Source of the DNA: Circinella umbellata
Lineage: Eukaryota > Mucoromycota > Mucoromycetes > Mucorales > Lichtheimiaceae
Reading direction: 5' to 3'
Assembly: GCA_025093555.1 (NCBI GenBank)
Contig: JAIWNF010000003.1
Location: 1,178,001-1,242,000 of the forward strand
DNA: 64,000 nucleotides
Part shown: piece by piece, positions 43,513-51,796 of the stretch
Numbering within the stretch: position 1 is the stretch's first letter
How the letters are laid out: the number at the start of each line of letters is the position of its first letter
Position numbers and translations under genes: made by a program
The notes under the pieces: generated by a model
The model's database searches: none
The model's input: only the letters and a program-made list of their open reading frames with translations
What the model was told of the DNA's origin: nothing

Positions 43513-46500
43513 TCAAGCCTTTTTGTCTAAAAAGTCGTAAAATGCTTTTTGTGGAATTTCCACGTTTCCTGGAGATAGAAAAAAAAAACCATGTAATTTA
43601 GTAATACAAAAATCATTTAGCACATAGTACTAATTTTATATGAGTTAACTGAGCTTACCGATCGTTTTCATCCTTTTCTTTCCTTCTTTCTGTTTTTGTA
43701 ATAATTTCATTTTACGTGAAACATCACCGCCATACTAAATAATATACAAGAAAATGCGATTTTTTTTTCAGTTAATACTCATTCGTTCATCCATCATTTT
43801 AGCGTTCAAATACTTACACATTTTGCAGTAACATTTTTTCGTAACGCTGGAATACTGGATAGTTGAAAAAAAAAGAAGAGCATTATCTTTTAGCTTATAT
43901 AAATAAATATTAAACTTATTTGAATCAAATTCTTACGTTTCACGTGCAACAATTTTCGCACCAAGTGCTGTTTGAATGACAATCTCGAATAATTGTTTTT
44001 GAATAACGTCTTTTAACCGTTTCACCCAATCACGACCCACAATATCAACCTGCGAGCGATGAAGAATGACTGATAAAGCATCAACCGGCTTGTGATTTAA
44101 TAACACTGTCATCTATAAATAAAAGTAACAAGTGAGAATAAGTTTCTTTGCCATGCACTTATTTCAAAATACAGTGATATATAAACAAAAAATTAATATC
44201 TTATATACCTTTACGAGATCACTTTCTTCATACCCAGCATCTTCATAATCAAATGATGCATACCCAGATGATCGACTTTTGAGTTCATCGTAAAAATCAG
44301 TTACCACTTCAGCTAGCGGTAAAGTATATTTCATCATAACTCTTGTTTCATCGACAAAAACATAGTCACGTTGTTCTCCTCGCCTGCTCTATAAAGTTTA
44401 ATTCAATGTTAAAGAAAAAACATCCTCTATGAATCTTGTCTTTTTATTAATACTATTTTCATATCAACTTACACCACATAATTCAATCATTTTGCCCATA
44501 TATTCCTAAATATTTATATATTATGTGTTTGAGTGAGATTTTTTCAATCCAGTTCAAGTTAGACCTTACGACACAGGTAAATAAAATAAGCAATAACTTA
44601 CTTCAGGAAAGATCATTGTTGCTAAAACCATCGGTTCTTCTAAACGGGCCACTTTAAATGCACGTTCTTCAGAATCCGGAAAATCGGATGGATTACGAAC
44701 AATTCTTGTGGTCTTATCTTTAAATACCACTAAAGTATAGAAAATGACTCAGTATGTTTACTAACTAATATAATGCATTATGTTATAACTTACCCCGGTA
44801 AGGTACAGTTGGTTGCGTTACAATAATATTCGCTTCGTATTCCTGATTAAAATGAAAAAGGAGTAAAGATATATAAGGTAAAAAGACAAAAAAAATACTT
44901 CCTCTTTAAAACACAGTTTTCTACATACATTTTCCAATCTCTGACGAAAGACGTCCATATGTAAAGTGCCCAAGAACCCGAGACGCCATCCTTGACCTAA
45001 AGCGTGACTTTTTTAATATGTTATATTTAGTACCATGGTAACAATCACATATTTTTTCTCCTTCTTCGCACGCGCAATACATTCATCATTATGACAAAAT
45101 AATCGAGGAATAGCGAGCAAAATATTTTTAGTCACCTTGTTTCTTTGTGGACAGAAACACTTGCATCATTCAACGTTAATTTTGTGATAGACTCATCCAA
45201 CCTTCGAAAATCATTGGTGTCCACAGGAAAAATACCAGCAAAAACCATGGATTGTGCAGGTTGGAAACCTGGAAGTTCTTCAATTTTTTGTCCAACATGA
45301 TGAAAAGTATCACCAACATGTGCTTCTGAAGCAGTTTTCATTCCACATATTACGTATCCAACTTGACCAGCATGTCTAAAAAATAATCACAAGATTTAAT
45401 TACTACTATTAGTTTATGGAAAATAGAGGATCGAAGATATGTATGCACTTACAGATAACCAGTAGAGACTTGCTCCGGATGCATGATTCCCACCTATAAC
45501 AAAATATTTTAATATCCAGTTTCAATGCTTATGTCGAAAAGTATATACTCAAAGAAATATTTTGTTTATACCTCAGTCACCTCATACTTGTTTATTGAGT
45601 GAGCGGATGTAATTTTATCACCTGCAAACCATAAATAAAAAGGAGTTTTAGTAAAAAATTCATAGCACAAGGCTTTTTTTTTTTTGGCTGTTTTATAAAA
45701 AATACCTTTTTTAATTTTGCCATCGACAACACCTAGCATGCATACGACACCTACATATTGATCATACCAGGAGTCAAACAAAAGAGCTCGGAAAGGACGA
45801 TCGATAATTCCAGTAGGTCTAACAAAACAATTCTCGTCAAGGCTTTTCATCTAAGATAAACAGCAAAAAGAAATACTTACGGTGGAATATTTTCAATCAC
45901 TCTTGGTAAAATAGTATCAATATTAACGCCAGTTTTTGCAGATATCTAATCGGAAAGTATTCTCAAGTTTTTAGTAATATTTTGTTACAAGCTGTTATAT
46001 CAAAAATCGTACACAATTACCTTTAAAATAGATGATGTGTCCAATTCAAAAGCACTTTCAATTTGTTTCATAGTTCTTTCACAATCAGCTCCCGGAAGAT
46101 CCACTTTATTTAGTACGGGTATGATATTAAGTCCTTCACCAAATGCTAGATAAAAATTGGCCACTGTTTGTGCTTGAATACCTTGGGCTGCATCAACAAG
46201 TAGAATAGTACCTTGGCATGCTGCTAATGAACGTGATACCTCGTAGCTAAAATCCACATGTCCCTTTAACATATTGAAAATGAAATGAATCAATACAGTG
46301 AATCCTTCTTCAATTCTTTTTTGTATAACTTACTGGAGTATCAATTAGATTTAATAAATATTCTTTTCCTTTATATTTGTAGAACATAGATACAGTCTAA
46401 ATAAATCAGTTAGTAGAAGAACTAAATTCAATTTTATTCTTTCTATTCTTGCCATGTACCTGGGCTTTGACAGTGATGCCCCGTTCACGTTCAACTTTGA

Positions 46501-47095: not shown

Positions 47096-47259
47096 TGGAC
47101 AAGTTTAGAAAGAACGGTGGTCGTGTGTGACGGCGAAGTTCTTTTTCCAGGTTTATGCAAAATTCGGGAAACTTCTTTATTTTTTTAATTGTCAGCTCTT
47201 CTTTTTATTTCTATTACTGTTATCCCATTTTTTTTTTTGGCTCGTAAAAAAACAAAACA
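47096..47259. promoter_or_regulatory. Shared divergent promoter of GUF1 and HSP78
   Basis: Only 164 bp separate the two start codons. It contains GAAACTTC (47168-47175), the inverted nGAAnnTTCn core of a heat-shock element. Nearby GAA/TTC triplets occur (AGAAAGAA at about 47108-47115, AAGTTCTTTTTCC at about 47137-47149). Both genes serve mitochondrial protein homeostasis, so shared heat or stress control is plausible but inferred. Confidence 0.55.
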
Positions 47260-50200
47260 ATGTTGCGATTTCAACATAATGCTTCTATAAAAGCTTCAAT
47301 TCAAAAGGGTATCTCAAGATACAGTACTTCAACAGCAAACTCCCGAAATGGTTGTGCTGTAACACCTTACTCCACTACTAGTCGGTTCACTACTAGTTCT
47401 AAACGTGTTGCCGTCACTCAACGTTTTTTTCAACCAGCGGCTCTTCTTTCATTAAAAGGTGTCCCTTTATATACAGTGAAACGTTTTTATAATGGTAATA
47501 TTTCCACCTTCCATTGTCATTTTTTCTTAGTGGTGATGAAGTTGTATATTATATTATAGAAAAACTGATGATGTTTATATTTACAAGGTGGTGGTGGAAT
47601 GCCACCAGGCGGAGGATATCGTTTAAATCCGAACCAACAACAAGAAGAAGCAAAGGCATTGGAGCAATATGTATGAATGATTTGATTCCTTTTTTAGTAG
47701 TTTCTCGGGTAATATAAAAAATTGTTTATTAATTCAATACGATTATAAATTTTTGACAGGGTATCGACCTCACAGAAATGGCAGAGAAAGGAAAGCTTGG
47801 TAAGTATTTTTTTTTTACTTTAATGCATGGATTTTGTTGTCGGACCTTCCTTTTGACGTAACTCATCCATCAAAATCATATATAGATCCCGTTATTGGCC
47901 GAGATGAAGAGATTCGTCGAACTATCGAAGGTGAGAATGATATAATATTTTCACAATAAAACGTAACTCGACATGAAACAATAAAACTAACATATCTCTA
48001 TGTAAACTTATTATGTAGTGTATGAATATAGTATTAAAGAAGCAACTTTAAGAATGAAATTAAGCAATAGGCTAAATGAACGTTATGTCTTTTTTTAATT
48101 CAGGTTGGCACGTCGAACAAAAAATAATCCTGTATTAATCGGCGAGGCAGGGTAAGAGAAGAAGAAATTATTTATTCTGAAGAACTGAATGATTATAAAC
48201 TGATCAAACATAAACTCTTTGTAGTGTCGGCAAAACAGCCATTGCTGAAGTGAGTTATTTATCTATATGCTTGGAAAAGCAAGAATATTCAATATAATAC
48301 TTAAAGAGTTATATAACTAATTTTTTAATTTCAACACAGGGTCTTGCACAGCGCATCATTGCTAATGAAGTACCTGAGTCAATTCAAGGGAGACGAGTTA
48401 TCGCTTTAGATTTAGGTGTAAGAGCTTTTTCTATTATACTAAAATAAATCATTTGTATAGTTCAAAGCTTAACGACTATTATTAATCATGACAACTATTA
48501 TAGAGTCTAATTGCAGGTGCCAAATTCCGGTAAGTTTATACAAATTTTGCTTCTTATTATTGTAAGTGAATAATTATTAAAATCAAAAACAAAAAGTGGC
48601 GAATTTGAAGATCGTCTTAAGGCGGTTCTAAAAGAAGTAACCGAAGCCGAGGGAAAAATAATTCTTTTCATTGATGAAATTCATAACCTCCTTGGACTCG
48701 GAAAATCAGAAGGCGCGATGGACGCTGGTAACCTTTTAAAGGTTTGTACCCTTTCTTCTTATTGTTCTTTATAATCATGGCACTATTTATTAACATTCTG
48801 TTATTATTGCATTTTAAGCCTGCTCTTGCTCGAGGGCAGCTACGATGTGTTGGTGCGACAACAATTGATGAATATAGAAAGGTAAATTATAGTATAAAGG
48901 AAGAAAGACCTTATGATTAGAATAGATAATTAATGCGTTGTTGTAAATCCTATCTTTAGTATATAATGGCTGATCCGGCATTAGCCCGCCGTTTCCAGTC
49001 AGTTATGGTAAGTTATCTTGTAGTGTTAAAAAAATCCAATATATCTAATTACCTTTTTATTATTATTCTCTTGACAGGTGGATGAACCTTCGGTAAGTCG
49101 ATTTGGTTTATTTTTATTATAGGTAGCATATACTCATTTACTATTTCATTTTAAGGTTCAAGATACAATTTCAATTTTGGTAAGTTAAAATCATACTCTT
49201 TTTTTTTCTCCCTCTCTCGCAGAATAATTGTATGTCGTAACTAAATAAATCATGTAATAGCGCGGTTTAAGGGAACGATATGAGGTCCACCATGGTGTTC
49301 GAATTGCTGTAAGAAATTGAAAATAAAGAATTATTTGAAAAAGTCCAATATTTCTTTTTATGCTGGCTGTACTGATGACTGGCATTTATATAGGATTCTG
49401 CACTTGTTTCAGCTGCCATTCATGCGCATAGATACATTTCTGACAGGTAGTACTGCTGACATCAATAATATGAAATAGACTATGTATATTTATATTTATA
49501 TTTATCTTCACATTCTTCCTTTTTTCAGATTTTTGCCCGATAAAGCAATTGATCTTGTTGATGAAGCATGTTCAAAACTTAGACTTCAACAAGAAAGTAA
49601 GCCCGAAGCACTGGAGAAACTGGACCGTCAAATCATGACTATGCAAATCGAGCTTGAATCGTTACGTAAAGAATCCGACACCTTATCCGTTGAACGTCGC
49701 GATAAATTGCAATCCGAGTTAGATGAAAAGAAGAAAGAAAGTGATCGACTTTCTGGTGTCTGGAATGAAGAAAGGTAATTATATTTGTAGTAAAAGGAAA
49801 ACGAATAGTAAGTATATCCGTTTTGTTTCTAATTTGTTGATTGATATTAGACATAAGTTGGATGAAATCAAGAGAACTAAAGAAGAATTAGAGCAAGCTC
49901 GTGTTGATTTGGAAGGAGGTAAATATTTTGTGCTATAATGTATATGTTTTTATCCATAAAACCATTTACTAAAATGTTATCTATAGCTCAAAGAGCTGGT
50001 AATTTTCAAAAGGCGTCTGAGTTGCAATATGGTGTCATTCCTAATTTGGAAAAAAAAATTCCCAAAGATGCTACAGAAGATGAAAATCCAGACTCACTAA
50101 TTCATGAACGTGTTACTTCTGATGATATTGCCCGTGTTGTCTCTCGTATGACTGGTATTCCTGTTCGTGTAAGTATTAATTTACCTTTGTTATTAAAGAT

Positions 50201-51796
50201 AATATATTGTGAATTAATAACGATATCAATAGAACTTAATGCGAGGCGAACGAGAAAAACTGCTCCATATGGAAGATGTATTACGCAATCGAGTTGTTGG
50301 ACAGGATGAAGCTATTACGGTAAGTTTGTCCGTTGCCTTATTTTTGTTGAAAGAAAATTTATTAACGAGTACGTATTGAAATTTTTATAGGCCGTATCAG
50401 AAGCTGTCAGGTATAATTTACTAAACATATAATAATGAACTAGTGAACGCTAATACACATATTATTAGATTGAGCCGTGCAGGTTTACAGAACCCTTCAA
50501 GACCTATCGCTTCATTTTTATTCCTAGGTCCAACAGGTGTAGGAAAGGTAACTTGGAACATTTTACACTTAATTCGATTTATACCAAAGTGCTTTACTCA
50601 TTATTTCCAATCGGTATATACATAAGACCGAGCTTTGCAAAACAATTGCACAATTTCTTTTTGATACTGAGAATGCAATCGTTCGTGTCGATATGTCCGA
50701 ATACATGTACGTATATATTTTTCTTCTTTTTTCGCTGAGTACATATTAACTTAAATATTCTTTAGGGAAAAGTTTTCTGTAAGCCGTCTGATCGGTTCAC
50801 CACCAGGTTACGTTGGTCACGAAGAAGGTGGTGAATTGACGGAAGCCATTCGACGAAAACCATATGCCGTTGTTCTTCTTGATGAAATGGAAAAAGCCCA
50901 CCGTGACGGTAAGTATAAATATTCAGTGTATCAGAGTATGAAAACTAATAAATAGACATACACCTTGTTTATATTAGTTTCGAATCTTCTTCTTCAAGTT
51001 TTGGATGATGGTATCCTGACTGACAGTAAGTTTCATAGCTCTTAATTTATAAAAAGCTGAGCCACGTCTTCTTTTATTAAACACTTTTTCCCATTAATTC
51101 ATAAAGGTCAGGGAAGAAAGATTGATTTTAAGAACACAATCATTATCATGACATCCAATCTTGGAGCAGAAGCCCTTGTAGCTGATGTCCGTGATGATGG
51201 TGGTGTCAGCCCACGTGCAAAACAAAGCGTCATGGATGCTCTTCACCATGCATTTGCACCTGAATTCTTGAATCGTGTTGATGAAATGGTTGGTTTTATA
51301 TTTGCTTTCGCTTCTCTTTGCTTATTCATATATTAATACGCTATTCATTTACTTTATATAGGTTGTTTTTAACCGGTTGTCACGTAAAGCTCTTCGTGAT
51401 ATTGTGGATGTTCGTTTGAAGGAAGTGGAGGAGCGCGTTAGTGACCGTCGTATCACAATTGACGTTGATTTAGAAGCACGTGATTGGCTTGGTGAACATG
51501 GTTATGATCCATCCTATGGTGCACGACCATTGAATCGTTTGATTATGAAACAAATTTTGAATCCTTTAGCACGATTGTTAATTGATGGTGGTGTACGAAC
51601 CGGAGAAAATGCTAATATCAGAGTAACAAAACAGCCTTCTGGTGAAACTACTTTGGAAGTCCAACGTAACCATGCTCCTGGAGAAGCATCCAATCAGGAT
51701 AAAGAAGAAATGGCACCAGTGGGAGATGAAGAAGAGGTACTCCGTGATGAACACAATCATGAACATAATAAAGAGGACGACAAAAAGACAGAATAG
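47260..51796 (+). CDS. HSP78: Mitochondrial ClpB-type disaggregase Hsp78 (AAA+ chaperone)
   Basis: About 27 small exons, starting 47260-47494, 47588-47670, 47760-47799, 47886-47930 and ending in 51361-51796. The N-terminus is a Ser/Arg-rich mitochondrial presequence. Mature sequence starts near a Gly/Pro-rich [13 protein letters not shown] and lacks the Clp N-domain, as in yeast Hsp78. AAA-1: GEAGVGKT (Walker A, split by an intron), [10 protein letters not shown] (Walker B), [10 protein letters not shown], and the arginine-finger region ALARRFQ. A coiled-coil middle domain follows (about [17 protein letters not shown] to [12 protein letters not shown]). AAA-2: [30 protein letters not shown], and sensor-2 [13 protein letters not shown]. 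The C-terminus is acidic and His-rich. It threads aggregated matrix proteins with Hsp70. One joint (E-V-L-A-R-R) requires a one-base exon at 48019. Confidence 0.95.
48019..48019 (+). other. Predicted single-nucleotide micro-exon of HSP78
   Basis: Exon 4 ends ATCGAAG before GTGAGA (47931). The next obvious exon starts at 48104 with GTTGGCACGTCGA, one base short of the conserved frame EVLARR. A T at 48019 is flanked by TTATGTAG on the left and GTATGA on the right, forming an acceptor and a donor. The left intron (88 nt) has an ACTAAC branch-site-like motif about 30 nt before its acceptor; the right intron (84 nt) ends TTTTTTTAATTCAG. Including this T gives GAA GTG TTG GCA, exactly the family sequence. 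Confidence 0.55.

Follow-up and report, generated by a model that had tools for sequence, protein, structure and literature searches.

A Very Probable One-Nucleotide Exon in the HSP78 Gene of Circinella umbellata, with Likely Counterparts in Other Mucorales

The HSP78 locus

The window, a stretch of 64,000 nucleotides from an assembly of Circinella umbellata (50.8 Mb in 210 contigs), carries a plus-strand gene that was spliced by hand into 27 exons and 26 introns (Table 1). This gene is HSP78, the gene of a mitochondrial ClpB/Hsp100 protein. The product has two AAA modules in the ClpB architecture without the ClpB N domain, it matches the structures of ClpB and Hsp104, and several orthologues among the matches listed carry the name HSP78. 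The ClpB model of NCBIfam (TIGR03346) scores 1135 bits over residues 90-793, which does not reach its cut-off of 1232, the profile being entered from position 143. Circinella minor supplies the nearest relative among the matches listed, a predicted protein that is identical at 815 of 830 residues when residues 135-152 are left out.

Among the best candidates in the genome, no second copy of HSP78 was found; they comprised an Hsp100 of 56% identity and one short match of 44%. The former (L002, G000:C90:706131-707252) was aligned over residues 10-373 of a 373-aa query and is a single open frame of 566 aa with no stops, in contrast to HSP78 with its 26 introns.

A minus-strand gene piece (46000-46329) adjoins HSP78, its transcription pointing away from that gene. 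It matches LepA/elongation factor 4 (TIGR01393) along 91 residues with 122.8 bits, short of the whole-protein cut-off of 533.9, and we presume that it belongs to the mitochondrial GUF1. At 47163-47175, approximately 85 bp upstream of the HSP78 ATG, lies TTCGGGAAACTTC, a perfect copy of a motif resembling the heat-shock element; it is the sole match in the window, for a chance expectation of 0.98 per 64 kb.

Table 1. Positions of HSP78 and of the putative one-nucleotide exon with its flanking features in the window.
Feature	Position	Strand	Basis or remark
HSP78 coding region, ATG to TAG, 848 aa	47260..51796	+	Hand-spliced model translates without a stop
Exon 4, GAA G at its end (phase 1, base 1 of the Val codon)	47886..47930	+	Sequence, spliced model
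Intron 4, 88 nt, GTGAGA...TATGTAG	47931..48018	+	Donor 5.2 bits, acceptor 3.1 bits
ACTAAC branch-like motif in intron 4	47986..47991	+	A at position -28 of the intron
Putative exon 5, one T (base 2 of the codon for Val 135)	48019	+	EVLARR restored
Intron 5, 84 nt, GTATGA...AATTCAG	48020..48103	+	Donor 6.0 bits, acceptor 6.3 bits
Exon 6, begins G (base 3 of the Val codon), then TTG GCA CGT CGA	48104..48151	+	Sequence, spliced model

A single base restores the reading frame

The original prediction held that a direct join of exon 4 to the exon at 48104 loses the frame by one base, and that a T at 48019 between an acceptor and a donor restores it. Both statements were borne out at exactly these coordinates: without T48019 the translation shifts and meets a stop 11 residues past the Glu, while exon 4, T48019, and exon 6 together read EVLARR. 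The base has AG directly upstream and GT directly downstream (TTATGTAG-T-GTATGA, of which TAG-T-GTATGA occupies 48016-48025). With a minimum intron length of about 30 nt, T48019 was the sole internal GT-AG exon between exons 4 and 6 (47931-48103) with a length of 1 mod 3 and free of stops, every other candidate of such a length containing a stop. A single canonical intron was rejected because it loses the frame and ends in a stop, as was retention of intron 4, which brings an in-frame stop. A recursive site or ratchet point of zero bases was rejected as well, since the AG and the GT have a T between them that the protein requires.

The remaining 24 HSP78 introns range from 58 to 93 nt (mean 75.75, SD 9.85), and the two introns beside T48019 fall within this range, while a merged intron would be 173 nt; thus, the earlier view that 88 and 84 nt are typical and 173 nt unusually long is correct within HSP78. 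The four splice sites flanking T48019 also lie inside the ranges obtained for the other introns by leave-one-out scoring (donors 1.4-9.7 bits, acceptors -3.1-9.4 bits). The branch-like motif that had been noticed in the 88-nt segment was located (Table 1). A YTRAY branch motif is absent from intron 5, as it is from 5 of the 24 other introns.

The chance expectation was estimated from dinucleotide shuffles of this stretch, 20,000 per script in two sets. In the first set, AGTGT occurred anywhere in 18% of shuffles, and in 1.9% with both introns at 58-93 nt. In the second, 0.87% of shuffles had AGTGT with introns of 58-93 nt and sites above the worst leave-one-out site of the gene, and 0.11% also had a CTAAY motif. 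Since 46% of shuffles (second set) contained at least one internal exon, of whatever length, that had acceptable sites and restored the frame, the frame argument by itself is weak, and therefore the case rests on the exact Val codon, on the intron lengths, and above all on the relatives.

Judging from the canonical sites, the gene-typical intron lengths, the restored frame, and the conserved protein, we consider it very probable that T48019 is by itself a constitutive exon, with ordinary U2-type introns of 88 nt upstream and 84 nt downstream. A one-base exon is the best reading of the locus, as originally proposed. The mRNA would then have the junction CTATCGAAGTGTTGGCACG (GAAGTGTTGG), and skipping of the T would give CTATCGAAGGTTGGCACG. 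The two introns would be recognized by intron definition and removed one after another, because only one base separates the acceptor of intron 4 from the donor of intron 5, and the two sites could hardly be occupied together. After removal of the first intron, the T would carry the remaining splice site. A transcript in which the T is skipped would meet the stop after 11 residues and would be a likely target of decay.

Orthologue models break at this junction

Orthologues were read as predicted proteins, and exon edges were deduced from their peptides. Groups were formed by name among the matches listed (best 120 per search), giving 53 models of Mucorales and Umbelopsidales, 19 of Glomeromycotina, and 31 of Mortierellomycotina; unnamed lgn, jgi, and ena proteins were excluded from the group counts, and models not spanning a junction were excluded at that junction. 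Among the matches listed, the 53 models of Mucorales and Umbelopsidales comprise 16 with a normal V or I, 9 with G for V, 15 with inserts, 4 with exon 6 lost or shifted, 1 with a deletion, and 8 without the exon-4 motif, and 28 of the 53 are aberrant exactly at the Val codon. Three of the 16 that read normally (P0024, P0028, and P0051) show damage a few residues past the codon. The original prediction had named homologues with one intron and an undisturbed frame as contrary evidence; on these models, they are not the common picture, while some of the 16 normal ones, e.g., that of Rhizopus delemar, may have lost one intron.

In a uniform alignment test, 23 of 50 Mucorales and Umbelopsidales models had an indel anomaly at the T48019 junction, compared with 40/1214 at the 24 other junctions (Fisher 6e-19, an overstated value because models of related species are not independent). 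The Glomeromycotina were anomalous here in 10 of 14 models versus 6 of 428 elsewhere (Fisher 1e-13, likewise overstated by kinship), and all six of the latter anomalies sit at N-terminal junction 1. The Mortierellomycotina served as a control, with 1/31 anomalous versus 12/735 at the other junctions (p 0.42). The apparent sharing of the problem at this junction among Mucoromycota had been overlooked in the first reading.

Individual models illustrate the trouble. Phycomyces blakesleeanus has three models with three solutions (EVLARR, EGLARR, and EGNKLYIYVNIRLARR), the L. corymbifera model starts right at the junction (MDHYAR/LARR), and the Mucor saturninus model carries an insert there. DNA scans for AG-N-L[AS]RRTKNNP gave 0 matches each in viral_contigs and genome_contigs. 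A one-base exon would explain the wrong HSP78 models in many Mucorales and Glomeromycotina, which often show a damaged first ATPase domain.

Garbled stretches indicate the exon edges

The edges were analyzed in 78 models, namely the 53 above and 25 others (19 of Glomeromycotina, one unnamed lgn protein, 3 of Endogonales, Calcarisporiella, and Spizellomyces). If exon 4 ends in the lone G of the Val codon in a given model, a wrong continuation has to start with GNN, and therefore with one of the residues Ala, Asp, Glu, Gly, and Val. Such a residue follows E/Q in all 23 insert models, compared with 28/67 control insertions elsewhere (Fisher 2e-7), and the count becomes 38/38 once 13 models with exon 6 lost or shifted and 2 deletion models are included. 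The test is cleaner with the 23 insert models alone, since the first residue of the others can be a conserved residue of a later stretch. Kinship among the models makes these counts phylogenetically dependent, but the signature recurs in 24/24 genera of a hand-made list, Calcarisporiella and Spizellomyces included.

At the other edge, if exon 6 starts with one base before TTG, reading through the acceptor gives AGN, which is Ser or Arg. An R or S stands last before L[AS]RR in 23 of 32 models (control, 4/67), and the Val that is expected there from an ordinary phase-1 intron in only two of the 32. Both signatures occur together in 16 of the 23 insert models. From the two signatures, the flanking exons seem to miss exactly the middle base of the Val codon, and this missing base seems common to many Mucorales, Umbelopsis, Glomeromycotina, and Endogonales. 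On the orthologue models, the split codon would be common to many Mucorales and Umbelopsidales and probably to Glomeromycotina and Endogonales too, and the exon would therefore be old. We think it likely that the one-base exon is shared across Mucorales, and lean slightly toward its being shared with Glomeromycotina by descent.

The breadth of this sharing, as distinct from the reading of the window, is where another explanation has some weight: the T may be real here and in close kin, while the distant anomalies have other causes, e.g., other microexons or 2-nt exons. In the models of Calcarisporiella (P0101) and Spizellomyces (P0117), IQ is followed by 'VS', as a read-through of a phase-0 donor (CAG/GTAAGT) would give, and the sequence returns with R before LSRR. 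On this view, two bases would be absent, a hint of a 2-nt exon. The relatives are, moreover, known here from predicted proteins rather than DNA. We nevertheless regard this explanation as doubtful, since both edges imply exactly one missing base in many lineages (16 of the 23 insert models, of which 2 are Calcarisporiella and Spizellomyces themselves).

Rhizopus delemar P0033 reads LEVVGKT, with exon 6 skipped, and this fits an exon 4 that ends in GAAGT. It is possible that the first of the two introns (intron 4) was lost in this lineage.

Alternative readings of the Val codon

A single intron of 172 nt with a non-canonical donor (TG...AG, 47932-48103) would give EGLARR, and it predicts the junction CTATCGAAGGGTTGGCACG (GAAGGGTTGG) in RNA. 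Ten of the 78 models do have G at the Val position, as expected from a donor displaced by one base, but the 87 sequences with an undisturbed motif have V in 67 cases, I in 11, and G in 9, eight of these nine being models from Mucorales and the ninth from Rhizophagus. In addition, a TG-AG intron of 172 nt is unlike any other HSP78 intron. Two cDNA-like contigs of other Mucorales, P0007 and P0018, speak against it as well, both reading EVLARR. The former (3315 nt, 801 aa) is Lichtheimia-like, with 94-96% identity to three Lichtheimia models, and the latter (2627 nt, 828 aa) is Mucoraceae-like, with 84-86% identity to Helicostylum, Pilaira, Rhizopus, and Mucor; we infer that both are cDNA from the length of contig versus ORF. 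The EGL and QGL models can be understood as artefacts of a late donor call (GAAGG/TG...AG/N TTG), the aligner having assigned the missing base to the donor. Altogether, we give the TG-AG intron only a slim chance.

The base missing between two conserved exons might also suggest a sequencing or assembly indel, the genome truly having an extra base in exon 4 or 6. The C. minor model argues otherwise. From PVIGRD to EQKIIL, it is exactly exon 4, 48019-48030, and exon 6 of the window joined together, and its exon 6 frame is shifted in the same way as that of the window read without the one-base exon. As C. minor has this shift too, and at the same place, the indel that the original prediction had raised as an objection is very unlikely, and with the same one-base deficit deduced in many other genera, its probability becomes negligible. 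The 12-nt exon of the C. minor model (TGTATGAATATA, 48019-48030) was rejected for the window, where it leaves the frame still shifted. It is very probable that C. minor shares the AG acceptor and the T; the donor G that follows is left unfixed by its protein. As evidence of conservation it is weak, because the two species are close (98% identity).

A frame-shifted pseudogene, which the bare shift would suggest if T48019 were ignored, is just as improbable as an indel, given that all other exons are open across 848 aa with canonical introns and that no second HSP78 appears among the best candidates in the genome.

Known one-base exons and the age of the HSP78 exon

In the literature searched, nuclear genes reported with one-base exons were APC11 and VPS55 of plants and CYP621A of Fusarium. 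Two-step splicing was proposed for the one-nucleotide exon of plant APC11 (PMC4674806), which is reported from most land plants and was lost through intron loss in most monocots (PMC8831610). The APC11 and VPS55 exons are described as conserved down to mosses, liverworts, or Selaginella, with RNA support (PMC8831610). As in HSP78, the APC11 exon is one base between AG and GT inside a longer apparent intron, essential for the frame, and missed by annotation (PMC4674806); it lies, however, in a plant gene and was proven by cDNA, reporters, and RNA-seq (PMC4674806; PMC8831610), whereas that of HSP78 is deduced from sequence. The VPS55 exon is also one base, missing in annotations, and conserved over land plants including a liverwort, a hornwort, and Selaginella (PMC8831610). 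Unlike HSP78, VPS55 is a plant gene that is alternatively spliced in early lineages, and its exon was confirmed by RT-PCR (PMC8831610).

CYP621A is, like HSP78, a fungal nuclear gene in which the single base is the middle one of a conserved codon, after a phase-1 exon and before a phase-2 exon; its apparent intron is approximately twice the usual length, and database models are wrong at the junction (PMC12940212). It differs in that the base is G, the product is a P450 rather than a core chaperone, and the exon is reported in Fusarium orthologues, with confirmation from 18 SRA reads (PMC12940212). The report on CYP621A claims it as the first fungal gene with a one-nucleotide exon (PMC12940212). 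The ratchet points of Drosophila likewise juxtapose an acceptor and a donor for stepwise intron removal, but they keep nothing and lie in long introns (PMC8605326), whereas HSP78 would keep one base between short introns. One-base exons have also been reported from mitochondria, in cox1 of a placozoan (PMC5436844) and in a fungal rnl, between group II introns (PMC12308204).

The literature searched on Mucorales microexons, Circinella introns, and HSP78 exons yielded no report of a one-base exon for HSP78 or Mucorales. One-base exons and their deep conservation in plants are already known, while the gene, the reach at the level of kingdoms, and the probable age would be new. HSP78 would join the three nuclear genes above as a fourth, a core chaperone gene in which it was apparently kept across a fungal order or more.

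Mucoromycotina are placed as sister to Glomeromycotina, with Mortierellomycotina set aside, and Glomeromycotina are dated to an origin ca. 659 Ma (PMC6303338). If the exon is homologous in Mucoromycotina and Glomeromycotina, it would be ca. 659 Ma old, and its absence from Mortierellomycotina would be due to loss or to branching. That it predates the split of these two groups and has been spliced ever since, with loss of a flanking intron in some lineages and absence in Mortierellomycotina, seems to us a little better than an even proposition. If true, deep conservation of a one-base exon would be on record outside plants for the first time, the age of the exon at least matching that of the plant APC11 and VPS55 exons, and long-lasting one-base exons would not be peculiar to plants. 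The natural series of homologues would also allow tests of splicing order.

Other very small exons occur in HSP78 as well (48225-50410 of the window), of 15 nt (49078-49092), 20 nt (50391-50410), 24 nt (49156-49179), 25 nt (48225-48249), and 26 nt (48504-48529).
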